Shown here: piece by piece, positions 1,002 through 57,000 of the stretch
How the letters are laid out: each line of letters opens with the position of its first letter
Numbering within the stretch: the stretch's first letter is position 1
Source: Bugula neritina
Taxonomy: Eukaryota; Bryozoa; Gymnolaemata; Cheilostomatida; Bugulidae
Reading direction: 5' to 3'
Assembly: GCA_964035545.1 (NCBI GenBank)
Contig: OZ037769.1
Span: 1,658,501 to 1,722,500 of the forward strand
DNA length: 64,000 bases
Notes under the pieces: generated by a model
Database searches by the model: none
The model's input: the letters and a program-made list of their open reading frames with translations, nothing else
Told to the model about the DNA's origin: nothing
Made by a program: the position numbers and the translations under genes

Positions 1002-3919
1002 ACTAAGCAAAGACAAGAAGAACATGAGAGCGGCCTTTGAGCCCTGTGAGTCTCAGAGACTGGCTATGCTAGGTAATCGGGACTCCCTGTTCACCCCCCT
1101 CCATAAACAACACAAACACATATCTCTACTCAAACACCCGGCTCTGCTCTGTATGGTTGTGCTGGGCAACAATGAGCTCTACACTCATGGCTACATCTGC
1201 AGCACGGTAGAGGAGTCAGTAAGTCTAGACATCAAGTACCTGATTATCGAAACTTGGCTTCAGTTATTTTTAAAATATTTTATATAGAGTAGCACAGCAT
1301 AAACTCCTGCGAGTTTGTATGTAGAAAGTAATTTTATCTCATTTTAGGTATTTTTGGCGAAGAAAATTAGAGATGAAATAGAATTTATTCGAAGAGAGTC
1401 TTTAAAAGCTGGCCAAGTGCCAAATTCCACTCTGATGGGGGAGAACCTTGTAAGGGGAGATAATAGCTACACTGTCGTTAAAGCTCCATCTTTGAGTAAG
1501 TAAAGGCAACAGCTACATAAGAAGTTTGTTAGATTACTAGGCAAAAATAAATAACAGCAAGTAAATAGAATATAAATTAACAAAAACAAAATGCTTGCTT
1601 TACCACCATGTTTTTGGTGATATATATATTATAAATTGTCTTAAGATTGCCAGGAACAATATTCGTTTTACCCTTTAGAGTCTAAAGTGGGGTCTAAGAA
1701 AAATTCAAGTAAAAAGAAAGACAGAGGAGCTTATTCTACTCATACAGGTTTGTGAGAGAAGATGCAATGTGTTTCCCCACAGTTAGCATCATTGTGTAAA
1801 AACAGCAGCTAAACTAACCCCATGATGCCTAATAGTTATAAAACATAGTTTTTAAAATTTGTGTGTATGTGTGTGTGCATGCGTGCGTGTGTGTGTGTGT
1901 GCGTGTGTGTGTGCGCGTGCTGCGTGTGTAACTTAAGGTGCCTCTAGCTTAACTCTTAACTCAGACAGTCATCATTCGTTTAATCTAACTATATTTGTTG
2001 TTATTTAATGTCAAGGGGAGGACGAGGTTGATTATGGGTCGTTTCACTTTGGACTCACTCGAGAGGAGTTCGTACCTCAGTACGAACCTGCAACTCATGA
2101 TGATGAAATCAACCAATTGATAAACCAAAACTTCCTGATTGGCCGACCCGGAGATCAAAATGAGGCAAGACAGAAAAGTCGACAAAGTTTCTTTTCCGAG
2201 ATAGAAAGTGGATCAGTTTCGGCGAGTGACTTGAATGTTAGAAGATCCAGTGATAGCCAGAGGCCTGTAGGGGTGGTACAGCCCGCAGTGAGGGACGGGT
2301 TTAAGGTTCTCCCATCTGATATCTCTGCTGATAAAACTAAACTCAAGCCGACAATCTTGAATGTAAAGACTAAGAGACAGAGTGAGGTACAGGAATTGTA
2401 TTTACATACACTAAATTAACAGCTACACAATAGTATAATTCACTAACATTCGAATATAGAAACAGAAAATAATATCAAGTTTACATTAAAGCCCACTTTT
2501 TCTTGGCTAGTAATAACGAAATTGAGATTCTTAATTTTTTAAACCTTTGTTTCCTTCTCTAACTGCTGTGTTGATTTTACCTAACTAATTAGTGTTTACA
2601 GTGGGAAGATGGTTTAACTCAATGCCAGCGATTGAGATTATATCATGTTTAGTCAGGACTACTGATGGAAGTTTTATTATAAAACCTGAACTTAAATTTG
2701 TGGTGTTGAGAGAACGGGGCGGCTCCTGTGGTGTAATGGCTAGCACGCTTGCAAGCCTGAGGTCTCGGGTTTGAATCTCAGTGAGGAAAAAGGTTTATAA
2801 AGTTAAGACTAGTCATTAATTGAAAATTGTTGCTAATATTTGCTCTAATATCAAAATGCTGCTCTAGATAACGCCAGAGTTAGATTTTAAACTGAAAATG
2901 AGGCAAAAAGAGAGCGAGGAGACAATCCTCAACCCACTAGCTCCGAGAACAGTTGTAAACCCGTTGGCAGAAGCTCACCCAGAGCAAAACAGGAAGTCGT
3001 ACATCAGTCCCACACCCGGACCAATCAGCAAGGTGAAGAATCTTCTAGAAATTTTTATTGTTTTATGGCAGTGTGACCTTACTTCTGTCTATAAATTGTC
3101 AAAAGGAAGTGAGAAATTCTCCTCTGCGACCAGAAACACCAAAGCATAACACAAAGTAGAACCTGTTTTAGTAGCCCATTGTCACACTTGATTGCCGTTA
3201 ATGTTATTACAGTTAGAGCTCTGGCAACTGTATGCAACAACCACAGGCTAGAAAAATACTCAATATATCATTGTTCTTAGCTTTGGTCTAACCTCTAAAA
3301 TAGTTCGGCTTTATGAATAAGAGTTGCTGATGTCTTTGTGATTGTATTTTACTTTAGATGAGCACCTCCCTGCCCTTTAACCCATCGGCTGCTTTGCCTC
3401 AGTCCAGTTGGCACGAGTCGGTGATTGGCAACTTCAAATCAAAAGAGAAGATAGAAAACCGGTGAGTAATAAAATGTACCAGAGCAAGTGTTGGTACATA
3501 CGGTACGAGAGTAAGTGGTGGTACATACGGTACAAGAGCAAGTGTTGGTACATGCGGCATGAGAACAAATGGTGGTTTCAGTAACGTTAGTAGGTGCTGC
3601 CGTGCTGAGACTATGAAATGAAGTATTTATTCTTAGAACTATAAAAATAGTAGTTGGAAGTGGTTATTATGCCTTGCTTCTGCTGTAACCAAGTTTACTA
3701 AGAATTCCTTTACCATTTCTTAGACTGACCAGCCAGATGGTGGATGCGAAGGAACTGCCAAAAATGAAATCAGACAAAAAACAGTCAGAAATTGAAAACT
3801 TGTTTTCAAGCGTGAATTTGGAAAAAGTTGAAACTCAGAACATGGGAGAAGAGAACTTTGCGATGACTGGGTCTAGCCCAATGAACCGGCTGCACGAAGC
3901 TATGGGTTTTATGCCCTAA
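1002..3919 (+). CDS. Unidentified multi-exon gene, 3' part (7 exons, 422 codons visible)
   Basis: Exons by splice signals and phase: 1002-1218, 1348-1495, 1679-1747, 2016-2386, 2868-3032, 3358-3461 and 3724-3919 (stop TAA 3917-3919). All junctions are GT/AG and the phases chain without a stop. The first exon starts inside a codon, so the 5' end is outside the window. The N-terminal visible part is compact, with hydrophobic positions (LLKHPALLCMVVLGNNEL). It is followed by a Lys/Ser-rich linker (SKKNSSKKKDRG), an acidic block (GEDEVDYGSFHFGLTREEF) and a long polar, Ser/Lys/Glu-rich tail ending LHEAMGFMP. There is no signal peptide, membrane segment or catalytic motif. I do not recognise the family. 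The sequence looks like an intracellular adaptor or scaffold with a mostly disordered C-terminus (inference). It is convergent with RPA2, 778 bp away. Confidence 0.7.
1861..1930. repeat. (TG)n microsatellite
   Basis: A degenerate run of tgtgtg with interspersed gcgtgc, lying in the intron between exons 1679-1747 and 2016-2386 of the unidentified gene. Confidence 0.9.
2720..2786 (+). repeat. tRNA-like sequence, probable SINE relic
   Basis: An A box matching TRGYNNARNNG perfectly (tggtgtaatgg, 2729-2739) and a B-box-like ggtttgaatct (2768-2778) occur at tRNA spacing. The D-arm region resembles Gln/Glu tRNAs. The anticodon stem does not pair and the acceptor arm is poor, so it is not a functional tRNA. 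A short A-run follows. It lies in an intron of the unidentified gene. A tRNA-derived SINE head or tRNA pseudogene is the best reading. Confidence 0.55.
3476..3565. repeat. 27-bp tandem repeat, about 3.3 copies, next to a splice donor
   Basis: Unit beginning gtaccagagcaagtg and ending ggtacatacg, repeated with few changes. It starts about 14 bp after the donor at 3462 of the exon 3358-3461. One copy contains a donor-like gagagtaagtgg. Confidence 0.8.
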
Positions 3920-4697: not shown

Positions 4698-7600
4698 TCA
4701 GGCATCTTCAGTAGCTCTGAAGTGATCATCGTCTATGGTTGAGAATATAAATCCTTCGCCACTCAAGTAGTTTATGGCTTTCCTAAGAAACGTACAAAAT
4801 AAATCTCCTGATTGCTTGACCTTTGCAGCACTTTTGAACACATACAGATTTATTATTACCAGGTAACATGGTATAACATTATAAAGAATAATGTATCAAA
4901 CTCAGGTTCACTAAAGCTAGCTGTTTATACCCTTCTAGAGTTACCCAGATTAACTGATCAGTTAAACGTTTGATTAGTGTCCATGTCTCGAAGCAGCTTT
5001 AGTGGAAGTGAGATATTTACGTGGGAAACCAGTGATGAATACTGATATGTAAAGCAAAACTTGCCACTATAACCCCTATTATATATAGTTTATAATGCCA
5101 CTATATATTGTATAGTCTCACAGCCTTGCGGTATACTCACGTGATTTCATCAGCAGTAACGTGAGGCAGCGCTGCCTTGATCTCCGTCACACTCAGTCCC
5201 GTCATACTCTTGTTCCCCTGAATCACCGTCCTCACCTGCTCAGGAATACCCGCAGACGTGTCTACTTGACTCGCGTCCCCTTCGCCGGCCTGTAACCATG
5301 GCAACAGAACACTCAGTATTGATACTACACAAGAAGGCACAAGTCAACTGCCTATGTCACAGGGAAGTTCCCTAAAGGCTTCTACAAACAAGAAGACAAC
5401 TTATAGCTGAGTTATTGCCACGTGCATTGAGAGACATCTTTTCATTTATGAGTACAAAGATTTCTTCTTCAAAGTAAATCCAATTTCAAGCAAGTTTTTG
5501 AGAATAACAAAATGTGACGCTTGCCAATTATACTGCTTTCTCAAGTATAGACAAATGCACTTATTCAAAGTCTAGTAACAGGGAAAGACAACTAGTAACA
5601 GGGAGAGACAACTAGTAACGGGGAAAGACAACTAGTAACAGGGAAAGACGACTAGTAACAGGGAAAGACAACTAGTAAGGGGGAAAACAACTAACAACAC
5701 AAAAAGGTTTACCTGCTTCATCTTGAGGTAGGTGTGAGACATTTCTAACAGATGCATAGTAATCTCGTTGGGATCTTTCATGCTCATGATTCTGTTGATG
5801 ACAATGTTAGCAGAGCCCTGGAAAGACTTTACTGTTCCGAATACTCTCACGTATTCACCTTGAGAAATGGGCTGGGGCTGAGTGGTGTCTTCATCCTGCG
5901 TGATTAGATACATAGCAGTGTAGACAACTCTTAATTATGTAGCTTAGTGTAGACAACTCTGAATAATGTATTACTGATACTCACACTGATATACTGATAC
6001 TCACACTGATATACTGATATACTCACACTGAGACACTGATATACTCACACTGATATACTGATATACTCACACTGATATACTGATACACTCACACTGATAT
6101 ACTGATATACTCACACTGATATACTGATATACTCACACTGATATACTGATATACTCACACTGATATACTGATATACTCACACTGATATACTGATACACTC
6201 ACACTGATATACTGATATACTCACACTGATATACTGATACACTCACACTGATATACTGATACACTCACACTGATATACTGATATACTCACACTGATATAC
6301 TAATATACTCACACTGATATACTGATATACTCACACTGATATACTGATATACTCACACTGGTATACTCACACTGATATACTCACACTGATATACTCTCGA
6401 GCCAGTAGTTTAGCACCCGTATAATCAGCCAATTCATAGTCATGTCTCTGATTGTTCATCTCCGATGAGAGAATTTTGGCCACTAGTGTCACCTACATTA
6501 GAATTCAATTATACGTACAAGTATTCTACTATCTAGCACTATTGTATAATACTGTAGTAATTCGTGCAATTACTGTGCGTGAGTTTTCTACTTGCGTATT
6601 TAGTTGGCTATTCTACTAGTAATTACTAGGGTAGCTGTCGAGTAATTACGTTTATTATCCACAATAAAATACAAAACAAACATTACATCAAATTACACTA
6701 TAACATCAGTCAACTACTAACACATGTTTCTACTTCAAGCCCTTGCTTACAACAACGTGATCATTGTCAATTGCCCGGGAACTGTCACATGAGTCGGAAG
6801 CATATCTTCCGGTGCTGCTGATTGGTTACTACATAGGGGCCTTAGTATTCCCAGAACGGAGAGAGGACGATTTTCATATTAGTACATTGCATGACTCACT
6901 ACAATACCACCTAGCGTCATTGTATAATACCACCTAGCGTCATTGTATAATACCACCTAGCGTCATTGTATAATACCACCTAGCGTCATTGTATAATACC
7001 ACCTAGCGTCATTGTATAATACCACCTAGCGTCATTGTATAATACCACCTAGCGTCATTGTATAATACCACCTAGCGTCATTGTATAATACCACCTAGCG
7101 TCATTGTATAATACCACCTAGCGTCATTGTATAATACCACCTAGCGTCATTGTATAATACCACCTAGCGTCATTGTATAATACCACCTAGCGTCATTGTA
7201 TAATACCACCTAGCGTCATTGTATAATATCATCTAGCACTATTATATTCTACCACAACATATGTGTGCATCAGGACAAACATGCCGTGATATAAAGAGGT
7301 AAAAGAGTTTAATTAATTGTAACTAATTGGTTATCCTACATTATAAAATGTATATTTGTAACTACTGCCTTGGTAAGAGTCCGCAAGCTCCAAGTGTTCT
7401 AATGATACCAAGTGTGTTTGAAAAGACATTGAAAAGATTTCATTCACTAGTATAGCATTAGCTAACTGTCATTTATATGACACATAACCACTATACAATC
7501 ATTTATATGACACATAACCACTAAACAGTCATTTATATGACACATAACCACTATACAGTCATTTATATGACACATAACCACTATACAATCATTTATATGA

Positions 7601-8475
7601 CACATAACCAGTATACAGTCATTTATATGACACATAACCACTATACAATCATTTATATGACACATAACCACTATATAGTAATTTATATGACACATAACCA
7701 CTACACAGTCATTTATATGACACATAACCACTATACAGTCATTTATATGACACATAACCACTATACAGTCATTTATATGACACATAACCACTATACAGTC
7801 ATTTATATGACACATAACCACTATACAGTCATTTATATGGCACATAACCACTATACAGTCATTTATATGACACATAACTACTATATAGTCATTTATATGA
7901 CACATAACCACTATACAATCATTTATATGACACATAACCACTATACAATCACCTGCTGCAGCCCGCTGCCATCTACACAGACGAACTGGTCGTCCACCAG
8001 TGCCCTATGAATGGCCTTTATGCACATCGGCTTCATGCCATTTTTTTCCTACAAGCCGGAAAACCTTTTATAATATCACAATAACTCAAACAAGAGAAGA
8101 TAACCTCTACAAATTATCACAATTGGGAGAAGCAATCAAGTGAAAGCTGTACCTCATGTCCACGCTCTCTTGCCACACTAGGAGAAGCTCCGACACTAGG
8201 AGATGTCTCGAAGCCACCTAAAACATGCCTCAACTTTTAAAATCAACTGCTTATACTTCAGGTTACACATACGGATGAAAAACCAAAATATTTGAAGTTG
8301 GGCAACTCCAATTTTTCTAACAAAAACACAATATAATTATTTGAATTAGCTTCAATTGGCGAAACAAACTGGTATCAAACAAAGACTTTTCTTTTTTGCA
8401 AAGAGTGTCTTTGTTATTCGGCAATTCATAATGATAAGCTACAATTCACATACCTCCTTGGTCGTTCCAAGCCAT
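4698..8475 (-). CDS. RPA2: Replication protein A 32 kDa subunit (RPA2), 7 exons, 235 aa
   Basis: Subunit of the RPA heterotrimer that binds single-stranded DNA in replication, repair and checkpoint signalling. Exons in transcript order: 8475-8454, 8217-8153, 8048-7953, 6492-6385, 5895-5713, 5289-5141, 4782-4698. They total 708 nt, all phases match, and the stop is TGA. The short N-terminus starts MAWNDQGGGFETSP, like the MWNSGFES-type start of the family. The OB-fold is carried by exons 3-5 (MKPMCIKAIHRALVDD, VTLVAKIL, EYVRVFGTVKSFQG). The C-terminal winged helix is carried by exons 6-7 (LSGEGFIFSTIDDDHFRATED), the region that contacts repair proteins. It is shorter than the human protein (270 aa), mainly in the N-terminal Ser/Gly tail and the linker. 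Introns 3, 4 and 5 each have a minisatellite at the donor end. An LTR retrotransposon ends 350 bp upstream of the start codon. Confidence 0.95.
5573..5692. repeat. 20-bp minisatellite, about 6 copies, RPA2 intron 5
   Basis: Unit agtaacagggaaagacaact with single-base variants. It begins about 20 bp inside intron 5 from the donor of the exon 5895-5713. The unit has no splice consensus. Confidence 0.9.
5973..6395. repeat. 22-bp minisatellite carrying about 20 copies of a splice donor, RPA2 intron 4
   Basis: The plus-strand unit is actgatatactgatatactcac, with some 14-bp and variant units. On the transcribed strand each unit reads TATATCAGT/GTGAGTATA, which is the end of RPA2 exon 4 plus its 5' splice site. 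I count about 20 copies of GTGAGT. The last exon bases (6385-6395) already belong to the repeat. Confidence 0.95.
6900..7228. repeat. 23-bp minisatellite, about 14 near-identical copies, RPA2 intron 3
   Basis: Unit accacctagcgtcattgtataat repeated almost without change, with the last copy diverged. It lies mid-intron, about 410 bp from the acceptor at 6493, so it is not junction-anchored. The near-identity suggests recent expansion. Confidence 0.95.
7465..7951. repeat. 30-bp minisatellite, 16 copies, starting at RPA2 intron 3 donor +3
   Basis: On the plus strand the unit runs from atttatatgacacataacc to actatacagtc. On the transcribed strand the intron opens GTGATTGTATAGTGG and the repeat units read ATGATTGTATAGTGG, so the array starts at the third intron base and differs from the donor only by G to A. 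Because 30 is divisible by 3, both strands show long open frames (about 157-159 codons) that are artefacts of the repeat. Confidence 0.95.
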
Positions 8476-9472: not shown

Positions 9473-10231
9473 TCATACGGATCCCTTTAGCTGGAAGAGT
9501 CCTGTTGTAGTGTTAAGTAGATCTGGTGCCAGCTGGGTGAATTCTTCTTGTAATCGCAGAAGGCGTTCTTCTACTGTGGCTAGGCGTACTGGGTCTGGGG
9601 ACGGTGTCCGTCTGCGGCGCAAGGGTGGACTGGGGGACCTGGTTCGTCTCTTCGTCGGGGTAGGGGAGATCTCTCCTTCTTCTGGATATGTAATTTCCTC
9701 GGGGGTGTATGTAATTTGAGGGCGGTCAGACACCAACGGGGATTGTTGGCGGGCGTTGTCTAACACACGTTGGAACCCCGAGGACAGAACGGCTAACAGC
9801 ATGGCCTTCTTCACCAGAGGTCGTATAAGTGTGAGGAACTCCGGGTATAGCTTAGCGTCGACCACGTAGTTTTCTCCAGGGAAACAGCCCGCCGCTCGGT
9901 GTCTGGTGACGGGGTAGGGATACACGTCATTGTACCCGCAGGGGCAGAATGTTAGTAGGAGATGAGCATTGACGTGTAGTTTAAGGGAGCGGTGAGAGGC
10001 GCAATCTTCACCACAGATTTGGCATCTCGTCCGTCCTCTGGACCCCCAGGCCGTTTCTATTTCTTCTTCTGTTTGTGGAGACACCCACCGCCAACGGCGG
10101 CGTAGTGGCTCAGGCCGGTCACCACTAGCATACTTCTCCGGATACGGAGCGGGAAGTGTTCTATCCCGTACCCTGGTTGTAGCGGGTCGAGTGTAATCTG
10201 AAAAAGTTTCAACAGTGTTAATACAGTACAC
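9473..10231 (-). CDS. Extra 3' ORF of the retrotransposon, zinc finger plus RS-rich, 252 aa
   Basis: Sits in the env position between pol and the 3' LTR. It has no signal peptide and no transmembrane segment, so it is not envelope-like. It shows a C2H2-type finger (CQICGEDCASHRSLKLHVNAH), a further Cys/His cluster (CPCGYNDVYPYPVTRH), a basic arginine/serine/proline stretch (TRSPSPPLRRRRTPSPDP) and a C-terminal amphipathic segment (VEERLLRLQEEF) that may form a coiled coil. A pyrimidine-rich CTTTTTCAG near 10,200 could be a 3' splice site for a subgenomic message. Role unknown. Nucleic-acid binding is inferred. Confidence 0.75.
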   Translation of the reverse strand: MYCINTVETFSDYTRPATTRVRDRTLPAPYPEKYASGDRPEPLRRRWRWVSPQTEEEIETAWGSRGRTRCQICGEDCASHRSLKLHVNAHLLLTFCPCGYNDVYPYPVTRHRAAGCFPGENYVVDAKLYPEFLTLIRPLVKKAMLLAVLSSGFQRVLDNARQQSPLVSDRPQITYTPEEITYPEEGEISPTPTKRRTRSPSPPLRRRRTPSPDPVRLATVEERLLRLQEEFTQLAPDLLNTTTGLFQLKGSV

Positions 10232-10511
10232 TGCCGTGTTGTCAGCTTGAACAGCTTGGCAACTCCTAATTCAGTTACCTCGTAGAGATTTATGGTAGTG
10301 AATAGTCAGATAGAACACGTATTGCAATGAGATTATAAAAATCTCTAAGTCAAACTGAGTTCTTACTACGGTATTTCACTAACCTATCTCCAGCTCGATT
10401 GACTCAGTGAGTCAGAGCTGAGCGATGCAATCTAGTTTCGTATTAAGATATAGTTAACTCACCCCACGATCTGTTGTCGTAAGACATACTGAATGTGTGA
10501 AATGGTTTGAA

Positions 10512-13500
10512 CTACTGCTTAGAAACACGTCTACTCCGGACTGCATCAGCGTATGAAAAGATCGAGCAACGTGGTTGGGGTGCGTGATTAAGACTTTGTG
10601 CACCCGGCGGATGAATTTTGTTTCTATTTCCGCCGATACAAAAGTTGATATTTCCGTGGTGTTGACAACTCCCACATTTGCTCGATACTTTTCTCGTACG
10701 GTTTTCCCCTAGACTTTCATACACGCCGCTTTTAACGCAGTCGCATATGAAGTCCTTCAAGTATGCGGGGGGTTGCCTCGTACGCTGTCCCCTTTCTAGG
10801 GGGGGTGACACGCTTGCCGGTTCGTTAGTAGGGGCCTCTAATGGCGTCTCTACTTCACCGTTAGCGGTCACCTCTTCTTGTTCTCCGGATGGAGCCCCTC
10901 CCTCCGTGGGGGTTTGCACTTCCGGAACCGGCTCGGTTTCTGGAAGTGATGGAATTAGACTTGGCGGTGGCGGACACGCTTCCGTTGGTAGAAGCTGCCG
11001 CTCCTCTCTCACCAAGTTTTCTTCCCGCGGTATGACCACTTCGTATTCAGGTCCATGCCGCCGTCGCCCGCGCGTTGTTGTCTGCCTCCTGGGCTCTAAC
11101 AACGGGGGGGCTTCTCCCACTCCGTCGGGGCTAGCCCAATACGGTTTCAAGCGAGACTCATTCTGGATAGACACCTGTCCTGAGCGCTCAATCTTGTACG
11201 TATGATTGGGCATAGCCTCGACGACCACGTAGGGGCCTACAAACTTAGGCTTCAGCTTATCAGCCTGTCCGCGGCGCCTACGGTAATTGACCATCCACAC
11301 CTTATCTCCCCTTTGATAGAGAGGTGGTTCATCGGAATCTTCGTGCCGCACCTTCCACTGCTGTTGGCGCAGTATATCGTGTGCGGCCGTCATCCGTTCC
11401 ACTAGTTCACTGGCATACTCGTGGACTGAGTTATCTTGCTCTGGAACGTGATAGGTGAGATGGTCAGGGACACGAGTCTCTCTCCCGAGCATCAAGAGGT
11501 TTGGGGTCTCACCAGTACTGGTGTGTGGGGTGCTACGGTATGCACGCATGACTTGCGGCAACACCGTATCCCATTCCTCTTGACCTCGTCCAAGGAGGAG
11601 ACTCCGGAGTGCATCACCTAGCATCCGGTTGTTGCGCTCCACCACCCCGTTACCTTGAGGGTGGTAGGGGGTGGTCCTGCTCTGATTTACTCCCCAGAGG
11701 CGGCAAAGGTCGCTCATCAGTTGAGACTGGAATTGAGCGCCTTGATCAGAGTGTATCTGTTCGGGGAGCCCAAAATAACAGAATACATGTTGGTCTAGTG
11801 CCCTGGCCACTGTTGGGGCTGATGCATCTGGGATAGCCAGAGCATCCGCCCACCTAGTAAAGTGGTCGGTTAGTACTAGGATCCAATTATTGCCTCTGGG
11901 GGTCAGGGGCATGGGTCCGACCAGGTCTACAGCGACTACTTGCCAGGGCCTACCAGCGTATAGCCTCCGCCGTCCTGCTTCACCAGGGGGGCGGCTATGC
12001 TTACTGGCCTGGCAGATCTCACACTGTTTGACTCTGAGCCGGACATCACGCTCCATTTGTGGCCAATACCACCGAAGTCGTAATTTGGACATCACTCGCT
12101 TGACCCCTGCGTGGGCCTGCTTGTGAGTATCCCAAATCAACTCACGGCGGATGGCTGTGGGGCAGACTACCCTCTTCCTTTCCGGGTGTCTGCCGCTGGC
12201 AGCTAGAGAGATGGTTAGTAACCCATCCTGCCCGATCCGCAGCGAGTCCCAACGCTGACAGTATAGCCGGAACTCGGCGCATCCCTGTCGTATGCGTTCC
12301 TCGCTGGGTCGTCGCCCTTCCCTTTTGGCCCGGTATATGTCTGCCACGACTCCAGGCAGCTCTTCTTGGAGCTTCTTCAGCTCTCGAACATTACCGGCCA
12401 GTACAGGGTTGGCGCGGAGGTTTTGTACATCCTCCGGGGACTCATCAACTCTTTGCCTGAGTTGACCTTGATCCCAGTCAAACGGTGCTCCGTGATGAGC
12501 CAGCGTCTCTAACTCGCATCGCGGGGGACCTCCATCCCTCCTCTCGATGTTGAGACACTGTTTGCAACCTCCGTCAGGTCGGCGACTCAACCCATCCGCA
12601 TTGCTGTGTCTCTTGCCCGGTCGATGTTCGATCCGGTATGAGAATTCAGCTAGGATTTCGAGCCACCGGGCGACCTGACTAGAGGGCTCTGCTCTCCTGC
12701 ACAACCAGATCAGCGAGGCATGATCCGTACGCAGCCGGAACTTCCTGCCATATAGGTATGGTCTGAAGTGCTTCACTGACTTGATTACTGCCAGCAGCTC
12801 CTTGCGGGTAGTGCAGTAATTTCGTTCAGCGGGTGAGAGAGACTTGCTGTAGTAGGCTACTACTACCTCTCGGCCTTCCTGCACTTGTGACAGCACAGCG
12901 CCAGCATTTTGGTCACTGGCGTCCGTGTCCAGGATGTACTCCAGAGTGGGGTCTGGGTAGGCCAAGATGGGCGCCGTTAGTAGGCAGCCCTTGAGGCGGT
13001 CGAACGCTTCTTGCTCGACTGGAGTCCACTGCCACGTCACTCCCTTTGCGGTGAGCCGGTTTAACGGCTGGGCTATGCCCGCAAAGTCTGGTATGTATTG
13101 CCTGTAATACCCTACCAGCCCCAAGAAAGCCCGGAGTCCGGTCAAGTCTTGGGGGGTGACCCAGTCTTCTACTGCCCGTACCTTTTCGGGATCCGTTGCC
13201 ACGCCGTTTCGACCGACAACGTGCCCCAGATACTTGACCTCCGGCTGCAATAGAGCGCACTTGGAAGGTTTGAGCTTAAGACCGGCACCTCGGAGTCTCT
13301 CGAAAACCTCCTGCAGACGACTGACATGTGTCTCGAAGTCTGGAGAGATTACGATGACATCATCGAGGTAGACCAGCAGTGTCTTCCAATGGAGTCCGCT
13401 AAGGACTTGTTCCATCAGCCTCTGGAAGGTGGCTGGGGCGGAGGTTAACCCGAAGGGCAGCACCTTCCACTTCCACAAACCGTCCCGTGTGATAAACGCC

Positions 13501-15984: not shown

Positions 15985-15997
15985 CTTGGATGCACTA

Positions 15998-16014
15998 TCC
16001 CACTGCTGCCACCA
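15998..16014 (-). other. Primer binding site, tRNA-Leu-like
   Basis: The minus strand reads TGGTGGCAGCAGTGGGA one base after the 5' LTR. It starts with the TGG complementary to a tRNA CCA end and resembles the complement of tRNA-Leu 3' ends. The tRNA assignment is from memory and tentative. Confidence 0.65.
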
Positions 16015-16015
16015 C

Positions 16016-18415: not shown

Positions 18416-21400
18416 TCACGCAGTAATACCAAGTCTTGCTAGCTTTGCAGACAGGAAACTGTGCAATACAAACACAAATGGTTTGGGACTGGATTTCATC
18501 TCCAGCTCCTACAACATAAACCATTCTATTGACTAGTGACTGTATAAGTTAGCACCAACATGGCTGAAAACAAGGACAGGAAGTTGAATTAAATGGCTGA
18601 CTCAACTACTATAACGCAAATTGCAGACAATTAAACTATAGAATGGTTCAACATCTCCACTTTTCTCATTTGTATTAATTATTGGCATGGCACTGCACAC
18701 AGCTTCATCGATTTTTGGTACCTAATTATTTCTTATTGTAAATAATAAATAAATTATCAGTGTAAATAATAAATAAAATTTTAAGGTAAACATTAAAAAT
18801 TTTTTAAAGTAAATCCTAGATGAATTTATAGAGTAAATGTTGAATAAATTTTTAGAGTAAATATTATATAGACTTTTGGAGTAAATATGAAGACACATAC
18901 CTTAACCTCTTCGTCAGCGAAAGACAGCCACAGCGTGTTGACTCCGTCATCGGAAGACTTCTTAAGACTGCTAAAAGGGTACTGCCAAAGAACAACTTCC
19001 TGGTTGTTCTCACCAGCAGACGTTAGACTGAATCCGTTCTCGTAGTGTATCTTCAGTGTGGCGTCTCGACTTTGTAGACACACAGCTACAGGAGAACATA
19101 ATACAGCTACAGGAGAATATAATACAGCTACAGAAGAATATAATACAGCTACAGGAGAATATAATACAGCTAGAGGAGAACATAATACAGCTACAGGAGA
19201 ATATAATACAGCTACAGGAGAATATAATACAGCTACAGGAGAATATAATACAGCTACAGGAGAACATAATACAGCTACAGGAGAACATAGTACAGCTGTA
19301 TATTATAGTGAATAAGCAAAATTGAACTTAAACCTAGAGCTTTGATAAAAGAACCAGTTCCAATGTGTTGCTAGGTGTAGAATGTACTAGATAGACTGTG
19401 AACTCACCGCATGTAATTTGCTTGATGATTTGGGCAGCCTGGTGGGCCCCGTTCACCACCTCCTTAGCCCAGATAGCCTGGTCTCTTTGACTTTCCACCC
19501 TGAATGTGTGAGACTCAACGCCTTGATTAGTGCCCGTTCTTGTGCAGAATATATAGATGTCAGTTCCTGAGGCTAGACTTAGTTGCTTCCCACAATGCAC
19601 CAATCTACAAAGTGAAAAGGTCACTCAAACATGTACTCAGTAGCCATAAGTGTGTGTCAATCAGTGTGTATTATATTGAAACAGGAGTACACACTTAATA
19701 CACCTCCCAATGTATTGTGGGATAAATGCTGCAACTATGATAAAGTATTCTAATGAATGAAAAAAAGGCAGATAAACACAACTACTGCTAGTATATGTAT
19801 ACTTTGAAGACCCGGGAGCAAATTTTGTTAACAATATAAAGAACTGACAACTCCAATTGTTGACACTTTATTCTAGCTGTAGTATAAACTAGTTCTTTAT
19901 CTCATCAAACAGTTAATATATGCTACAAATTAAGGCTACAACATAGCCTGTGACCAGAGAAAACAACTCGATATAGACTATATTACTGCAGGTACAACAC
20001 AGTGCACTGCACACACCATACAAACAACATATCATTATATAACAGACAGCAAACATTACTGAAATCAACATGTCTTATGATTTATTGTACATCACAAAGC
20101 TGGCAGAGGCATATGAAAGCTCTCATTTCATTGGACAAACAAGCTGACTGGACTAGACATGACGTAGTCACCCAACATGTATCATGTTGCTATGGTTACC
20201 TTTAATACAAACACTGCAGCATAATAACAAAAGAAAGGATAACTTCACATTAGAGTGTGTTGCATATATTTATTTACCTACAGGCTATGAGAGAATGCAC
20301 CTACAATATGTCAACTATAGCTATTAAGTGTGAGGAGTTGAGAGAAGATAACTACGAAATATGCAAGCTATGCTGATTACAATACCTGGTCGCCAAGAGC
20401 GGGTGACTCTGAATTGGGTTAACCCATTGCTGCTCTGTTCTAGGAACTGCTTTGTATAGCAACAGATCTTTTTCCGTCACACAAGCAAATACGGGCTTCC
20501 ATGTTGGGTTCCCCTCTTTACTATGCACCTGGCAGAAATCACCATAACCAAATATTTGAAACAAACAATATTTTTATAAAAGAACAAATACCAGGCATGT
20601 GATATTTTATTATAATAACTATTTATATACCAGACAGTGTCATTCTCAATTCAATCAAAATACAGACACTATTTCAGTTACTTCACATACAAGCAGAGGA
20701 TACAGTGCTGATTTCCATCTTCTTGTGACATTTTAGACAGAACAGAAGCTAAGGCACCATTCTGACATGACGTACTAATTATCTCAGGAGATGGCAGCTG
20801 ACACTTGACCCTTAGTGGCAGCAGTCAGTTAGCAGTTTACAAGTGATATATTATATATAAGCATTGTAAGATATCTCTGACTGGTAATTGGTAAGAAGTC
20901 TAATTATAGAAGTCTTGAGAAATGTTTGAATAGTTAGTGAGCTACACATGATGTGATGTTTCTACTGCGGCTGCTGCCTGAATACAGCTGCTGCTGGCAC
21001 CACTTGTGGAAGTCTGTAACAGTTGGTAAACTGAAGATCTGTCTACTAGTGTTAGTACAGTGTCTACTAGTATTACTACAGTGTATACTAGTATTACTAC
21101 AGTGTGTACTAGTATTACTACAGTGTGTACTAGTATTACTACAGTGTCTACTAGTATTACTACAGCGTCTACTAGTATTACTACAGTGTATACTAGTATT
21201 ACTACAGCGTATACTAGTATTACTACAGTGTGTACTAGTATTACTACAGTGTCTACTATTATTACTACAGTGTATACTAGTATTACTAGAGCGTCTACTA
21301 GTATTACTACAGTGTCTACTAGTATTACTACAGTGTCTACTAGTATTACTGCAGTGTCTACTAGTATTACTACAGTGTCTACTAGTATTACTACAGTGTA

Positions 21401-24400
21401 TACTGGCATTGCTACATCATATCTGACAGATTTACTATGAGCTGATGGAGAGACCGGTGAAAGGACTGTGTTCAGTTGTTCAAGTGGTTATCACTACATT
21501 TTACCAACAGTTAGTATATTATAACCGAGTAGAAGAAAAGAAACTAAACTTTGTTAGACTGAGAACCTACCTGTTGAGCCAGCCACCCCATGTATTTGAC
21601 GAACCGGGTGCTAGAGATTTGAGACATGGTTTTGTTGGCCTCGGGCAGGGCTACTGAGTGCAGCCTGTTAGCCACGTTCATAGTGAGAGAGTTGAACCAG
21701 GCGCTAGCGGTCACTCTGTCCGGACATTTGAGCACACAGCAACTCTGCCCATCGGGGGCGTGTATTTCTATAGTCAGCATGTCTTTGTCTATCATAGTCA
21801 AGTTCTGACAGACGTAGGTGTTGGTTAGGGGGATAGTGCGCCTGTCCGACCATGTGGATGATTGTGGTGAGGTAGAGGCTGAAGAGCCGGACACATAAGA
21901 GTTTCCGGAGTCGTCCCACCCGATATCTGATAAGGAACTTGTCTTCTTAAAGAATGGAGTTATCTCCCTTAGGAATTTCACTGTAACACAGCATTGCATT
22001 ATGGGAACTTCACTGTAACACAGCATTGCATTATAAGAACCTCACTGTAACACAGCATTGCATTATGGGAACTTCACTGTAATACCACATTGCATATGGG
22101 ACCTTCACTGTAACACAGTATTGCATTATGGGAACTTAACTGTAACACAGCCTTGCATGACGATGAGTGACATTGCTGAAGTAAGGATTAGAGGTCAATG
22201 ATAAAAATGAGGATAGAAAATGGGGGAGAGTGGGAGAGGGGTGGATGAATTATAGAAATGTCAGTATCTAAATAATCTCATCAAAAAAGTATAATAAAAC
22301 ACACATTAAAACAGTTTTCAGGGAATAATGCAAACCCCTTATGCCAATAATACTATACAATATTTACCGCTCAAAAAATGTCTTAGTTTAGAAACTTTCA
22401 AGAATAAATTTATACAAATAAAAATAGCCATAAAATGAACTTCATGGAACTGAGGCTATATATAAACCGTGAAGAGGGGAGAAAACTCCCCTTTTATGCA
22501 GAGCCTCTATATTAGTGCAAGTGGACTGAAAGATAACTAGAGAGATATAAATGACGTGTAAATCTCCGCCATACATATGTAGTACGAGAAGACAACCCTA
22601 ACACACGGTTCTGTAGCTTACTAAGTAAGAATACCAGTACATAGACTGAGTTATTAGGCTGGTGGGTTAAATATGATGGGCATGTGATACCCTCCAAACA
22701 CACACTGGACTTTAGTATAGCTAGAAAATACACATGAATAAAACATAGGCAAGGAATTGCATAACAATGTACTCATATAAATATATATCTAGTACAAAAA
22801 TAAGTTTAGTATATAAATAGTGCTTCTTCTTACAGCAAAATGTTAAATCAGCCAATCAGCTGCTATTCCAATTAATAAGATTATGTTGAAGATAAAACCT
22901 GATGTTATTTATATAGTATTTTAATGAGTACTTCTTATGCTACTAGATGAAGGCCTATTATAATAAGAAAAATAAGTTCCATTAGAGGCAAAAGTTTATG
23001 TATGTATATGTACGTACAAATGAGTATAATATGTACGTATATATGAGCATAATACGTACGTATATATGAGTATAATATGTACGTACAAATGAGTATAATA
23101 TGTACGTATACATGAGTATATGTATGTGATGAGGTCTCAGAAAGGTGATGGTGGAAGACTATTGTATTATGGGAATGTTTAGAGTGAAAATACATCAGCC
23201 AGGGTTGACACAAAATAGCCTAGAAACTAACATCTGCAGAGGGGGAGAGTAGAAGATTTACTTTGGAAGCTGAAGTGTCAAATTACTTTGTGGCACCTGG
23301 AAGCAGGTATGTGTCAAGTGATTTAGCGCATGCTGACATATTGGCTGAGAGTTGTGAAGCACTGCTAATGCTGACTGCTGCCACTGAATGGCTTCTCAAT
23401 TACTCCGAGTGCACTACTAAGTATTCAGTCTGGTGACTGAGATTTAGAGGAAAAATCAATTATGAATATAAAATAATTTGAAGAAATCTTGCAGAAGACA
23501 AGTGTGTGTGACACATAAATACAGCTGTGAGAACATGAAAATAAATTCATATCTTACTGATAATAAGGGGGGTGTAATGGAGGGAAACCATGACGCAATG
23601 GTATGTTAGCTCACATGTTTGCATGAGTGATGTAGTAACATACACTTCAGTGGGCTAATTCACACCCATCTAGTAGTAGTTGAGGATCAGAGTGATAAGG
23701 AGAGTAGAGATGCAAGTGATAGAGAGGGGCTAAAGGTGAGCACACTGCAGTACAGGGTGTTACAGCCTACTGCATGGTAAATGTACATTAACCAAAAATC
23801 AATGACATTGGGCAACTTGTTATAAATATACATAACACACTTATAAGCTGCCACTCATTGATTAAATGGTGTACAGAATGTTGCCACTATTGGAGATGTG
23901 AAAGTCAATAACTGAATCAATGCCTGGCAGCAATCTGGCTGACAGCATAATATTTTGATAATCTGCCTGTCAATTTGAAAGGAAACATTTTTGGGAGAAT
24001 CACAACACAAAGGTACTGACCTTCCAACTCTACCACCTTCCCGGCGTTCTTCAAACAGCCGACAGCCTCGTCGTGTGAGGCGTGACGTAAATCTTGTCCA
24101 TTCACGGAAAGAACGGCATCACCTACATACAACTGTTTGGTCTTGTCAGCCGAAAGCCCTTTGAATATTTTACTCACAATAATCGGCATTTTATTCTCTC
24201 TGCCTCCTTTAATGCTGATACCCAGTCCGTTGTCCTCTTTAACAACTCTCACCACCCGCCTTTGCCCAGTTATTATCTCGCTGGGAAATTCCGACTCGGG
24301 TCTAACACCCGGGAGAGGCGAGTCGGCTGTGAAGAAGTGTACGGAATCCTCGCCGTCAGTACAACTAGAATTAGGGGAGACAACTCCCTCTGTATGCCGA

Positions 24401-25858: not shown

Positions 25859-27627
25859 ATGTCAAAGCAGTGTGCTTGCAAAGGAATAAGGCGTTGCTTA
25901 TTGTGTGAGGATATACTGAATTCAAATGAAAATCAAAATGAAAAGGTATCACTATCAGTATCAGTGAATGTATCAGACTCATCTCAGTACCTGTGTGTCA
26001 TAGCTTGGTGAGCTTGAGATTCAGATTGAGATATTCTAATATAATACCAATATTTAGTTTATATTTTATAGTTAATTTATAGTTATTGACTACTGAAATG
26101 CCAATAATTCTTTGACTCCAACTGGTTGATGCATTTAGTATTTACTGTTTAGTGATTTACTGTTAGTGTTTACATGCCCATATCCTAATTTTTTCATATA
26201 ATTTAAGTTATAATAAATTAATTATTACATCTAGTTTTATATGGATAATAATGATTGTAATGAATATGATACAGCGAAGTCGTTTAAAATTTTAAACTAT
26301 TTTAAATCAGTAAGTGTAACTCACTAACTGTAAGACTAAGAGGCAGAGCTAATGTCACAACGTGTTGAACAATATATTTCGCTTTTACTTTTAGGGTGAA
26401 TTCACTAGTGACATATGGTACTACTGTATGTTTTGTGGAAACAAAGCTTACAGAGAAAACGTGAGCCATGAATACCATCCGGACTCCTCGGAATTTATAC
26501 TTATCGATGGTAACTAAATCTTATTAGTTTGTCACTAAAGTTACTAGCTGTGTGTCTGATGAAATTTATTTACTCTTGTATTTCACATTTCAGACAAGTG
26601 AGGTAAAAATTACTCAGTTAATAAGGTGACTTCATTAAAGATATTTTAGTTATAAATCTTACCTTTAAACCCAGTCATTTTATTCATAGTAACTGTGGTT
26701 TTGCAACTTTATTTTGGAGTTGTCTTGTAGTTGTTCTACAACATAGAGTAAGATAACTCCACAATAACTAAATGTTGCTTGTGTCTCAACACTCTATCTG
26801 TTATAAACACCATATTTATAGATACAACAACTGTAATTGTGTATAAAATGAAGTTCTAATTTTGTTCTTTTGTTTTCAGATATCACAAACTTCACATCAA
26901 TTTTTACGATATACTATATAGTCTATACGACACACTTTATGATATACTATACGATGTACTTTATGATATACTATACGATGTACGTTATGATATACTATAT
27001 GATATACTTTATAATACAGGAGTTTATGTAGAAACCAACTTTGTTTCTGAAGAAGAGGAAAGTCTGCTATGCCAAGGCATCGATCAGATTCCGTGGGTTG
27101 ACTCACAGTCAGGCAGACGGAAACAAGATTTCGGTCCAAAAGTCAACTTTAAAAAGAAAAAGATTCGTCTAGACACATTCAAGGGTTTTCCTGCCTTTTC
27201 CAGATTTATTATAGATAGAATGAAGTCTGTAGATAAGTTGGCAGACTTCTTAGCTGTAGAAATGTGTAACTTAGAGTATGTGCCTAGTCGGGGGTCTGCC
27301 ATCGACCCGCATTTTGATGACTTTTGGTTGTGGGGTGAGAGACTAGTGACAGTGAATCTACTTTCTCACACATGCTACACTCTCAGTCAAAAAGACTCTA
27401 ACGCCAGGGTTTTGGTCTCGCTGCCGAGACGCTGCCTCTGTGTGCTCGCCGCTGACGCCAGATACAAGTGGATGCACGCAATAGAAAGACATCATGTGAC
27501 CTCTCGTAGACTCGGTATAAACATTAGAGAACTTACAGAAGAATTTCTAGAAAATGGTTCTTCTTGGCCTGTAGGCAATGGGTTATTGGAAAAAGCAAAA
27601 CTAAATTTCCCAACTAATGGCAACTAA
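25859..27627 (+). CDS. ALKBH4: AlkB homolog 4, 2-oxoglutarate/Fe(II) dioxygenase, 3 exons, 269 aa
   Basis: Family member known for demethylase activity linked to actin-myosin function and DNA/protein demethylation. Exons 25859-25945, 26395-26509 and 27020-27627 total 810 nt, with phases 0 and 1 matching. The N-terminal cysteine motif CACKGIRRCLLCE is typical of ALKBH4. The core has SQSGRRKQDFGPKVNFKKKK, the iron ligands H-x-D in SAIDPHFDDFWLWGERL, the distal His in YKWMHAIERHHV, and the 2-oxoglutarate arginines in SRRLGINIRELTEEF. Slightly shorter than human (302 aa). The N-terminal start is chosen at the Met directly before the Cys motif. Intron 2 ends in a minisatellite that runs into the acceptor. 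Confidence 0.96.
26906..27015. repeat. 24-25-bp tandem repeat running into ALKBH4 acceptor
   Basis: About 4 copies of gatatactatacgatgtac plus tttat. The acceptor tttataatacag/gag is a modified version of the unit segment tttatgatatac, so the splice site lies in the last repeat copy. Confidence 0.85.
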
Positions 27628-40200: not shown

Positions 40201-41393
40201 GCAACTATTCTACTCCATTTGTCTCCTAATGTTGCTTCACTAATTGTAAATCACAGGGCCAGGTGGGCCCAACGGCTTCCAGTACAATTACATACAATTT
40301 CTAGGATGCACACCAGTTTTGTTGTAAATGACAAATTGAATTAAAATTTTGCTATAAACTTTTTGTTGTGTTAACAATATACTCGGCTGATGCAGGTGGT
40401 GCCCTAACCCTTCTAACAGTAGCTATGTATGTATATAAGCACGTATATACAAGTATAGATGTATATATTCTCACACGCATATTATATACATATCCCTCAA
40501 TCCTTGATTAGCCTAGACTCATTTATCAATATATTAATTAAATAATTCTCATTTTAATACTAGAGTAAAAAGTTTAATTGCCAGTTATCAAAATAAAAAT
40601 AATGACATAACCGGGTGATTACTTTAAATAATTGTCTATATTATATCAGAGTGCACTCCATTAATATTCTTAGAAGATATTAAATTTGAACCAGTTTTTT
40701 TTTAGCTTATGCAATTTAGAAAACAACAGTCATTCGTGGCAATTAAGAAACTGATTCTGTCAACTTTAAAAATAAATGCTCACTGTATCATTTAAAGTAT
40801 CCACAAAGCAGCAAATGCAGAATAAATGCAATATGGGGACCATTAGAAATTAGTAAGCTCTGACACATTCTATGAGCTCTAACACCCTCTGACACATTCT
40901 TTGAGCTCTAACACCCTCTGACACATTTCATAAGCAACTCACCAAGGTTCTGGAGGATGACTTTGTCCTCCATCTGCATCGTCCAGATCTCTGCGGCTCC
41001 AAACAGATCCGAATAATGTGCCGAGAGATGATCATCAACAATGTGTAGAAATAACATAAACACATGTTCCTCGTTTAAGTCAGCAAAGCACCTCAACATG
41101 CTGCCAAAGTTTGAAATCTTGTGGACATCTTCGGGTAGAGATGAGTTGTGAGGAATGGATTCTATAAGACTGGCCCCTTTCAATGTCCTGAGAATTTTGA
41201 AGTCTACAGAGTAGGTGGTCTGTTCATCTGCTAGGTGCTTGTAAGACTTGGTAACGTAGCCAACCACCACAATGGCTGCTTTAGCTGCACGTTCTTCTGC
41301 CGGAAGTTTTACCCAGTCGAAAGCTTGAGGACAAGCTTGGGTTAGAGTCACAAATAAAGTCAAAATGAAAAGTTGCTGCGTGAGGCTTTTCAT
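28247..41393 (-). CDS. Secreted NtA-like / TSP1 / LamG / TSP1 / 7xEGF protein, 13 exons, 746 aa
   Basis: Exons in transcript order: 41393-40943, 37727-37575, 36207-35672, 35389-35236, 34950-34786, 32800-32714, 32123-32031, 31784-31671, 30598-30503, 30129-30031, 29907-29812, 28928-28817, 28331-28247. They total 2,241 nt with every phase consistent. Residues 1-20 are a signal peptide ([20 protein letters not shown]). Residues 21-150 resemble the agrin NtA/TIMP-type OB fold ([31 protein letters not shown]). Residues 151-201 are a TSP1 repeat ([12 protein letters not shown]). Residues 202-400 are LamG/TSPN-like ([26 protein letters not shown]). A Ser/Gly linker follows, then a second TSP1 ([14 protein letters not shown]) at 431-486. 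Seven six-cysteine EGF repeats, one per phase 1-1 exon, run from 487 to 718. The short acidic tail ends at TAG. No membrane anchor. Probably extracellular matrix or signalling. I know no named ortholog with this order. Confidence 0.85.
33991..34066 (+). repeat. tRNA-like 76-bp sequence, probable SINE relic
   Basis: GTTGAT (33991-33996) and ATCAAC (34061-34066) pair as an acceptor stem at tRNA length. An A-box match tagcttagtgg is at 33996-34006. GCTAT/GTAGC (34014-34030) can form an anticodon-like hairpin with a 7-nt loop. The T arm is not recognisable. It lies in intron 5 of the EGF-repeat gene. A decayed tRNA-derived element rather than a working tRNA. Confidence 0.4.
40858..40930. repeat. 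29-bp repeat, about 2.5 copies, near the donor of exon 1
   Basis: Repeats of ctctgacacattctatgagc followed by tctaacacc. The array starts about 12-16 bp after the donor at 40942 of the NtA-domain exon. Confidence 0.7.
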
Positions 41394-53045: not shown

Positions 53046-53210
53046 GTTCAGTGATTTTAACTATGCACACCCCCTCACCTGTACGCACTTCACCTGTATA
53101 CACCCCTCACCCGTACACAAAGGTACACTACTCAGTACTCACCCATGTGCTACTCACCTGTATACCTGTATACTACTCACCTGTACACTACTTACCTGTA
53201 TACTACTCAC
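53046..53210 (-). repeat. Array of consensus 5' splice sites
   Basis: On the minus strand the core unit is GTGAGTAGTATACAG (15 bp), giving successive CAG/GTGAGT, CAG/GTAAGT, CAG/GTGAGT and CAG/GTATAC junctions. More diverged copies follow (TGG/GTGAGT, CAG/GTGAAG). It starts exactly at the end of an open 30-nt segment bounded by an AG. Confidence 0.8.
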
Positions 53211-53240
53211 CTGCATAACGAAAACTCTTGGCTTTTCTAG
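53211..53240 (-). other. Candidate orphan 30-nt exon next to the donor array
   Basis: The minus strand shows TATTATTACACAG/ followed by ten open codons (LEKPRVFVMQ) and then TGCAG/GTGAGT. Both ends fit splice consensus and the length is a multiple of three. No neighbouring exons were found, so membership in a gene is unproven. Confidence 0.3.
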
Positions 53241-53928: not shown

Positions 53929-53934
53929 TTTATT
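53929..53934 (-). terminator. Candidate poly(A) signal of CLN3
   Basis: AATAAA on the minus strand, 147 bp after the CLN3 stop codon. Confidence 0.45.
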
Positions 53935-54080
53935 TGAATTTGGTTTGTTATAATATAAAATAATTATAAAGCTAGTCTATGTAGAGTATGGATCATAAAA
54001 CTGCAAGATATGGATTATATTATCTTGTTAATACATTTAATAGAATATAATATATATTTGGCTAAATAAATGAGGTAGCA

Positions 54081-57000
54081 TTACTTCCAAGTTACACCTA
54101 AACTACATATATTGTTGTGAGCTAATATGGATAGGAAGGCGGTGATAGTTATCCCCGTAGAATCTGCAACACTAGCAATTCCCAGGCTAAATTCTCGGTG
54201 TTCATCTTTAACCTAAATTACAAACCAAACTTATCGAAATTTCTTGTTGTAAGACACACAATTGACGCAGTAAAAAATGCCCATACTACTGTAATATAAT
54301 ATCTAAGGATGTAAACTACTAAAGTATATAATTTTAACAGAGTTAGAAAAATTCCCCAGCTTAACTTTTCTGAAAGAAATAATGTAACTGTTGATTCACA
54401 ATGCTCAAATTATAGCATGCTTAAATAAGTATATTATTTTACCATTCCTTTCATTGAAAAAAATGGAATTTTCAACCGGTTTTGCAGAAAAAAAATCATT
54501 TCAATGTAGCAGCACAACAGCCCAAATTATTCATTCAGGAATTTCATTTGCACAACTTTTCTAAACCCCCAGTTTTAGTTTTTTAGTAAAATTATCATCA
54601 GTCTGCATACATACCTGGTTTGATATTTGATAGAAGGTTTGGACATAACCTAGGCCACCCAAACATCCTTCAAACAGTATAAGAGCAAAGACTATCCAAA
54701 TACCGTGAGCTTCAGGCATGTAGTGGTAGATAACTTGGTTGGTGAGTATAGTTAGATTTACTATCTACAACGGGACATATACAGTTTACACTCTGTGATA
54801 TATACAGTATACTCTGTGATATATACAGTATACTCTGTGATATATACAGTATACTCTACGATATATACAGTGTACTCTACGGTATATACAGTATGCTCTA
54901 TAAGTGAATATACAGTAGAGAAATATACTGCCAGAGAAGTACCTGCAAGAGTGGCAGTATCCACAGGTGCTTGAATGTGAAACAGTTGACACTGGAGCGA
55001 GAAATAAAGACACCCACTTGATAGATGGTTTGATACCACCTATACTGAGCCTCTATGGACAACCAGCTGCACGCTGCAGAGAAGTACAGCAGCTCAAACT
55101 AAAGAGCAAATAAATATACCAATTCATCAAACATACAGTCTGATTCAAAAACTAAAAAATTATCCTTTTGTAAACAACTAACAGTCATCTGAACGAAAGA
55201 CCGCTGACTATAAGTGACCTGAAGAAGTGCTGCCTGTAGAAGTTATACTCACCAAAGCCTGGTTGATGAAGTACTCCGCCATGTAAACTATCATCAGTGG
55301 AACCATAAACTTCAGCAGTGGCTAGATGGCAATAGAAGCAATGATTCATTTAACCAAATAAATTAGTAAATAAATATACATGTACATACAAACACACACA
55401 CGTACATACATATCTACATACATATTGGTGTCATAACTCTATACGAAGTTGTCCTACCTGTATAAGTCTTATCATCTGAAGCAGTGTATAGTCATTCTTA
55501 GGAGTTGTCCTTCTGTTGGGATCAGTTTGAGAATCAGCAGACAACTCCTGATATTGATTTATTTTATTGAAAGACCAGAGTGACCAGCTATTCTGTATGT
55601 AGGGAGGTCTGACAATCAGTAGATAGTAACTGTAAGTAAGAAACATACACTATAAATACACTACAGCTACACTACAGCTACACTACAGCTACACTACAGC
55701 TACACGGGACAAGAATAGTCACTAGCTAGCAGATTCCATCACCTCAAGGCCATAGACAGAGGCACCACGAGCATGATGAGGAGAGAAGTGTTAGCCGAGA
55801 GACCAAGTTGAGTTAAACCAGCGTAGGAAATGGCGCCAAATATACCGGCTGCACCAGTTCCAGATGACCAGGTGGATATGGCATTCCTACAACACCATAC
55901 ATTGTACACAGAATTAGTACATAGAATTGGTTCAGTGAAATTATATGTTGGAACAGTCACACAGCAAGATATAAAAGGAAGGGAAAACACAACATTACTT
56001 CCTGGAAGCCTTTAAATACAGACATATTTGAAGATATATGAAAACCAAACACTACTTTTAAACTCTCACAAATCTTAGCACATTTATAGGACAACAAAAA
56101 TAATTACATAATATAAATATAATTAAATTATTCGGGATATTCGTTGAATTAATTGATATTTAGAGATACATAAACGTACATGTATATTTACCTCTCTATT
56201 ACACAGAGTCACGTTTGGCATATGTATAATATAATATTTACCTGCTGTTAACAAACTTATGTATATAATATTTACCTGCTGTTAACAAACTTATGTATAT
56301 AATATTTACCTGCTGTCAACAAAGAGATGTACTTACGCTGCGTAATAAGAAGACATGCTAAGGAAAGTAATCTCCCCAAACCCACTAGAAACACTCCCAC
56401 ATGCCACACCTGCAACATGACATGCAGCTTTAATGTACAAAACACATATTGGAAGTGACAGTAAACAGTTTTAATACTAACCAGGAATAGTATACTTTTC
56501 TAATATGCTGAATATTAAAGTCACCGTATTACTAAGGTAAAAGGAAACAACTCCAGTAGTAAGAGCAATACGCACTATTGAATCCCAGCAGGCTTATTAA
56601 GGGTGATAGAAAGAGCATGATTGCTCCAGGAATTTAAGCAGACGTTCTCTCACTGTATTGCTAGACACACAGTCAGTTTCACAGGGATGGGGGCTTTAAA
56701 CAAAAATCGACAGTATTTCTATCAAATATACGATTACCAATATATAGACTACCAACTCACCAATATATAGACTACCAACTCACCAATATATAGACTACCA
56801 ACTCACCAATATATAGACTACCAACTCACCAATATATAGACTACCAACTCACCAATATATAGACTACCAACTCACCAATAATTAGACTAACAACTCACCC
56901 ATATTTAGACTACCAAATCACCAATATTTAGACTACCAACTCACCGATCCATAGACTACAAACTCACCAATATAACTGAGCCACTTGATCTGGGAGCCAG

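Follow-up and report, generated by a model that had tools for sequence, protein, structure and literature searches.

Minisatellite arrays are anchored at splice junctions in the bryozoan Bugula neritina, at donors as well as acceptors and in unrelated genes. The window, a stretch of 64,000 nt, comprises positions 1,658,501-1,722,500 of chromosome 5 in the assembly tzBugNeri2.1. Most of its intronic arrays lie within 20 bp of a splice site and some run into the exon. They are probably junction-seeded minisatellites of the kind named 'mirages' in amphioxus, in which tolerated short duplications of a junction have been multiplied by slippage.

Arrays at splice junctions of the window and of chromosome 1

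Using reading frame and splice sites, 24 introns were modelled in four multi-exon genes (gene A, RPA2, syntrophin and CLN3), whose frames all stay open once the exons are joined; for an NtA-like gene the first exon only was modelled in this way. The RPA2 model is 99% identical to RPA2 of Bugula neritina over the aligned columns. Its junctions QQ|V and YIS|DED are backed by homology (Bugula and Watersipora RPA2), as are the syntrophin junctions E|VKFLREIT and TC|AVCLQ (Watersipora). The CLN3 model reaches 429 bits against Pfam over residues 1-400 and was also compared by eye with two homologues; a search of PDB gave no match for it. In an ALKBH4-like gene, the upstream exon of which was translated by hand, a PDB match continues across the junction. 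Agrin NtA is found in the NtA/EGF-type gene with 24.1 bits, slightly below the cut-off of 25.1. Gene A had no match in a Pfam search, hence its junctions are set by the reading frame. The size of 20 of the 24 modelled introns ranges from 104 to 558 bp. The junction arrays are as follows.

3462..3576, + strand: donor 3461 of gene A (unidentified gene; exon 3358-3461), 27-bp array at 3476-3576, 14 bp away
7468..7955, - strand: RPA2 donor 7953 (QQ|V), 16 copies of a 30-bp unit beginning at intron base 2 (1 bp away)
5977..6395, - strand: RPA2 donor 6385 (YIS|DED), 19 copies of GTGAGTATATCAGTATATCAGT, the array extending 11 bp into the exon
5572..5713, - strand: RPA2 donor 5713, 20-bp array 19 bp into the intron
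21972..22158, - strand: syntrophin acceptor 21980 (E|VKFLREIT), 32-bp unit of TTACAG plus exon-initial bases, 9 bp into the exon
19082..19297, - strand: syntrophin acceptor 19085, 21-bp unit CTGTATTATGTTCTCCTGTAG of acceptor plus exon-initial bases, 4 bp into the exon
18738..18901, - strand: syntrophin donor 18901, degenerate 24-bp array 12 bp into the intron
26905..27020, + strand: acceptor 27020 of the ALKBH4-like gene, 24-bp array ending 3 bp upstream of the exon start
40858..40943, - strand: donor 40943 of the NtA/EGF-type gene, 29-bp array 15 bp into the intron
56736..56974, - strand: CLN3 donor 56968 (SYI|G), 10 copies of the unit GTGAGTTGGTAGTCTATATATTG of donor plus exon-terminal bases, 7 bp into the exon
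56229..56337, - strand: CLN3 donor 56337, 34-bp unit with AGCAGGTAAATAT, 13 bp away
54764..54899, - strand: CLN3 acceptor 54764 (LLQ|IVN), 21-bp unit AGTATACTGTATATATCACAG, 12 bp away, linked to a junction copy by eye only
55629..55743, - strand: CLN3 intron 55630-55742 (113 bp), 11-bp array 16 bp from the acceptor in an intron that leaves little other room

At RPA2 6385 the unit GTGAGTATATCAGTATATCAGT consists of the donor and exon-terminal bases. The repeated copies of the RPA2 7953 array read AT in place of the donor GT, and at CLN3 56337 the junction copy appears shortened (by eye; the alignment score is just 12). The original prediction had placed arrays near junctions of several named genes, and all 11 junctions that were matched to those names indeed carry an array at ≤20 bp. 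Two further junction arrays, at syntrophin donor 18901 and in the CLN3 intron 55630-55742, had not been listed there. The statement that donors and acceptors are both affected, with a different sequence each time, is borne out by the window arrays and by the swap control described below.

Other features of the window are listed here.

2717-2790, + strand: tRNA-like stretch by eye, a possible SINE, within a gene A intron
9473-16017, - strand: LTR retroelement of Gypsy type; its long open pol frame covers reverse transcriptase, RNase H and integrase, and its GC content is about 0.55 vs roughly 0.34 in the surroundings
62388-64000: 25-bp satellite, 64 copies with 98% match, continuing past the window edge
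6385-6492, - strand: RPA2 exon that Watersipora isoform X1 contains but that isoform X2 and the annotated Bugula RPA2 lack

ARAGORN and Rfam reported nothing over the window, including the tRNA-like stretch. Owing to its pattern of presence and absence among isoforms, the RPA2 exon looks like an old alternative exon.

For the distance analysis arrays with a period of 10-100 and a TRF score of at least 80 were counted, 13 of which fall within the 24 modelled introns of the four genes. Ten of these 13 lie ≤20 bp from a splice site and four extend into the exon, while the remaining three are interior (410, 900 and 154 bp from the nearest junction). Uniform relocation within the same introns yields 3.25 arrays at ≤20 bp with a maximum of 8, and ten were reached in none of 20,000 trials; P values from the window are post hoc since it was picked for this very pattern. 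In introns whose free space exceeds 150 bp, 6 of 9 arrays are found at ≤20 bp compared to 0.83 expected by relocation.

As a replicate, twenty 10-kb pieces of chromosome 1 were sampled at fixed spacing and their exons predicted with a small gene finder, for which the window served as training set. An array was taken as a junction match if its near edge lay no more than 40 bp inside the exon or 20 bp into the intron, considering the 33 of 38 arrays that are not mostly exonic. Nine of the 33 arrays match predicted junctions vs 2.87 by relocation (P = 0.001), whereby four of the nine belong to one OATP gene (L027) and another one (L024) is low-complexity and probably no gene. Under the same method the window gives 10 of 24 arrays at junctions, 1.72 being expected. 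With a different scoring and both samples pooled, 27 of 52 arrays score at least 10, compared to 15% of 400 random placements. Arrays are thus closer than shuffled positions to splice sites in the window and to predicted ones on chromosome 1, as had been proposed.

A simple explanation would be that these are ordinary intronic minisatellites of a repeat-rich genome, whose proximity to junctions is a matter of geometry. Many introns are short (20 of 24, see above), and arrays in intron interiors also occur (3 of 13). However, random placement in the same introns accounts for 3.2 of the 13 arrays while 10 are observed, the chromosome 1 replicate deviates with the P value given above, and some units contain exon bases. 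This explanation is already disfavoured and we regard it as quite unlikely.

Exon bases within the repeat units

To control for chance similarity, 26 junction/array pairs were compared by aligning each exon edge both to the array of its own pair and to arrays from other junctions of that type. The 304 swapped comparisons reach a maximum score of 23; rows with a common gene label were excluded, but several L009 and L027 rows were not separated. Seven of the 26 pairs align across the junction with exon bases at a score above 23. Four of them are in the window, namely RPA2 6385 (own-array score 46), syntrophin 21980 (37), syntrophin 19085 (32) and CLN3 56968 (33), and their units align 4 to 11 bases into their own exon. 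Hence the earlier proposal that the unit holds exon-terminal bases in at least four cases is borne out by these four junctions, all of which exceed the control maximum. The other three are chromosome 1 pairs: L009a, an acceptor array whose 33-bp unit includes 23 exon bases and which is outside the nine junction matches of the relocation test, and the acceptor array L027a and donor array L027b of the OATP gene with 8 and 17 exon bases, respectively. Boundary-spanning units are therefore present at donors (RPA2 6385, CLN3 56968, L027b) and at acceptors (syntrophin 21980 and 19085, L009a, L027a). The exonic share of the unit varies between 4 and 23 bases, as random breakpoints would yield.

The other 19 of the 26 pairs show no cross-junction alignment above 23; the ALKBH4 row is among them and does not count, its junction having been set three bases off. 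In gene A, RPA2 5713, syntrophin 18901, the NtA gene, CLN3 56337 and CLN3 54764 the exon edge aligns to the unit no better than the control level, so these six arrays are placed near the junction only. RPA2 7953 scores 22 with its own array, just under the control maximum, and L019a and L027d, which appear junction-spanning by eye, both fail the alignment control. Arrays near junctions are thus not all demonstrated to be junction-derived.

Splice words are weakly enriched in the consensus sequences of the units, and this consensus test is a weak one. The donor word GGTRAG is found in 5 of 88 array units vs 1.2 expected (2 of 55 vs 0.8 in the chromosome 1 samples alone), and acceptor words in 5 and 9 of 88 vs 2.6 and 7.8 expected. 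In the same 88 arrays (window and L009-L028) the units favour words such as TAGTAT, GTGTAC, TAATAC, ACTGTA and TGAGTA over the surrounding DNA. Ungapped self-similarity of junctions showed no excess: at least 16 of 24 matches were reached by 2 of 26 donors and 2 of 27 acceptors vs 14.7% and 9.9% of control sites, which included arrays. Hairpin-prone units were considered as a cause and rejected, as the units have no folding advantage over shuffles (mean z -0.10, n=61) and contain no excess of palindromes.

Repeated donor words across the genome

A strict class of donor arrays was defined by three AGGTRAGT words at 8-38 bp spacing, with the same pattern reversed as control. Genome-wide this gives 3574 matches (2099 + 1475) compared to 95 (50 + 45) for the backward pattern. 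Single donor words outside arrays show 16 vs 9 in 264 kb, which are small counts. The excess of triples is far above that of single words and therefore looks to be mostly a property of arrays. In support of the original suggestion, the pattern hence recurs elsewhere in the genome, both in the chromosome 1 replicate and in the one donor class counted. Matches overlap within arrays, and the 100 matches listed reduce to 14 distinct arrays within the initial 8.6 Mb of chromosome 1, from which we extrapolate about 350 to 500 arrays of the strict class in the genome. The window contains a single match to this pattern (53152-53212), and none of its 13 junction arrays fits it, so that the genome total of junction arrays is likely higher. 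The match belongs to the following array.

53152-53217, - strand: 15-bp array TATACAGGTGAGTAG that repeats a donor consensus; it lies downstream of the CLN3 stop, where no coding exon is visible

Ten of the 14 chromosome 1 arrays appear to adjoin the donor of a predicted coding exon, based on ORF scores that have no control of their own (under a related score 8% of random placements reach 20). In nine of them a same-strand ORF ends where the array starts (L029, L035, L042, L044, L046, L047, L048, L050 and L051), and L045 adjoins a donor on the opposite strand. No coding neighbour was found for L041, L043, L049 and L052 (L041 and L049 on the same strand only). Pfam or PDB back the exons of L042 (ankyrin), L046 (caspase), L051 (OATP) and L047 (IP3 receptor). 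The L029 exon has a sub-threshold Ig match (19.3 bits, cut-off 30), and a Pfam search with the exons of L035, L044, L048 and L050 gave no match.

At L047 the end of the IP3 receptor exon, TACGTCTACCAGCTAGTGAAG|GTGAGTCAC, recurs as a 30-bp unit.

L047, 1188-1416: IP3 receptor donor array, 30-bp unit in frame and without stops

Consequently, splicing at inner donors would extend the protein by ten residues at a time. Several of these loci combine both types of array. The L046 caspase exon is preceded by an acceptor array (17 copies of 43 bp, with the exon start CATGGACT) and followed by the donor array, at L050 a donor array is joined by an acceptor array ~10 bp from the exon, and L035 has an acceptor array at one exon and a donor array at another.

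Origin of the arrays and relation to amphioxus mirages

Units commonly measure 20 to 40 bp, and a good part of them copy the sequence across a donor or acceptor junction, including 4 to 23 bases of the exon. For RPA2, syntrophin and CLN3 it is the exon-proximal copy that gives the conserved protein. Judged by this homology it is the working splice site, so that the extra copies are intronic and leave the protein unchanged. Duplications of a junction would thus be nearly neutral, because the copy beside the exon keeps working, and the same duplications inside exons would be removed. Slippage or unequal exchange may in turn expand and homogenise the duplicated copies.

Slippage tolerated at junctions, with every new copy a potentially usable splice site, had been put forward as the cause in the original prediction. 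This holds insofar as it explains the undamaged exons, but it falls short in number. If duplications were seeded uniformly over intron and junction, 1.2 of the 13 arrays in the window would be expected to span a junction whereas four do (P = 0.023, post hoc), and the excess of donor triples far exceeds that of the single words, for which counts are small. Tolerance therefore seems not to be the whole story. Junctions seem to seed or retain arrays more often than intron interiors do, which suggests that something beyond tolerance favours them; they may also be a mutation hotspot, or the arrays may bring a benefit.

As a rival explanation the arrays may have a selected function, in which repeated donors or acceptors act as a buffer for splicing, strengthen intron definition or bring about alternative splicing. 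All internal copies keep the core GT or AG in 11 of the 13 arrays examined for this (the exceptions are RPA2 7953 and L027a), and the alternative RPA2 exon described above, missing from the annotated Bugula protein and one Watersipora isoform, is flanked by two array-bearing introns. Moreover one intronic minisatellite of C. elegans is enriched beside alternative exons, according to the accessible text of that report (PMC4039745). The same exon skip however exists in Watersipora, and across all 13 arrays so examined splice columns diverge more than the others (36/489 vs 106/3356), largely through the RPA2 7953 unit that lacks GT. A lower divergence at the splice columns of internal copies was not found in these arrays. 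We therefore consider a selected function improbable.

In the Rogers model of intron gain exonic AGGT segments are tandemly duplicated and the array itself becomes the new intron. Units of the AGGTRAGT class run GT...AG, and one chromosome 1 locus resembles such an intron.

L009, 4394-4660, - strand: GRASP55/65 intron that seems to be mostly one 30-bp array

Most window arrays, on the other hand, sit at one intron end while the other end is outside the array. We regard intron gain as a very unlikely source. Both processes have in common that tandem duplication supplies splice sites. In the available part of its description (PMC4974935), AGGT-segment gain makes a new intron in an exon, whereas in Bugula existing junctions were multiplied into existing introns.

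Junction seeding thus remains our preferred reading. More tentatively, and less likely than not, it could reflect an active genome-wide process of tandem duplication aimed at junctions, a mutation hotspot tied to splicing or transcription, which would have produced hundreds to thousands of mirages, would still be remodelling introns and possibly splice choice, and would exist independently in lancelets. In any case the arrays make it possible to test directly if splice junctions are mutational hotspots, and how the spliceosome chooses among many near-identical donors. With so many junctions, existing data (Ensembl annotation, HiFi reads, the alternate haplotype and other bryozoan genomes) would allow seeding, tolerance and intron growth to be measured.

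Repeats at splice sites have been seen before in single genes. The human IFI6 (G1P3) gene carries a splice-donor minisatellite, a repeated splice donor like those of Bugula, but in a single gene. As far as the accessible texts go, repeats also touch splice sites in Cryptococcus, where repeat expansion creates introns (PMC2395259), and internal tandem repeats occur at exon-intron boundaries in human segmental duplications (PMC2812944); both cases are confined to one gene or to recent paralogues. Literature searches, mostly of open-access text, yielded no genome-scale or bryozoan report of boundary minisatellites, the accessible part of the Flustra genome paper (PMC13326412) included, and the terms 'tandem repeat', 'satellite' and 'intron' are all absent from the main text of the draft B. 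neritina genome paper.

The closest counterpart is found in amphioxus. In the portions of the reports available to us, mirages are minisatellite-like tandem duplications across exon/intron boundaries, described in the globins BflGb6 and BflGb9, Adh3, troponin C and PGBD5 (PMC3087553, PMC3902484). Either the donor or the acceptor is duplicated, many units contain splice signals, and regular splicing is reported to be intact. Since the same thing is already on record there in several genes, the idea of a new kind of repeat, raised in the original prediction, does not hold. Bugula arrays likewise span the exon/intron boundary (7 of 26 pairs), do so at 5' and 3' boundaries, and resemble the AG/GT signals of many mirage units in that the core dinucleotide is intact throughout all copies of 11 of the 13 arrays examined. 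Mirages come from gene-by-gene reports in a cephalochordate, with units of 10-72 bp (Adh3) or about 150-160 bp (globins), whereas the arrays described here come from a bryozoan and affect many genes, with one donor class at 3574 vs 95. Taken together, the kind itself has already been named mirages, and what is new is the phylum and the scale: boundary minisatellites turn from a lancelet curiosity into an apparent genome-scale feature of a distant phylum.
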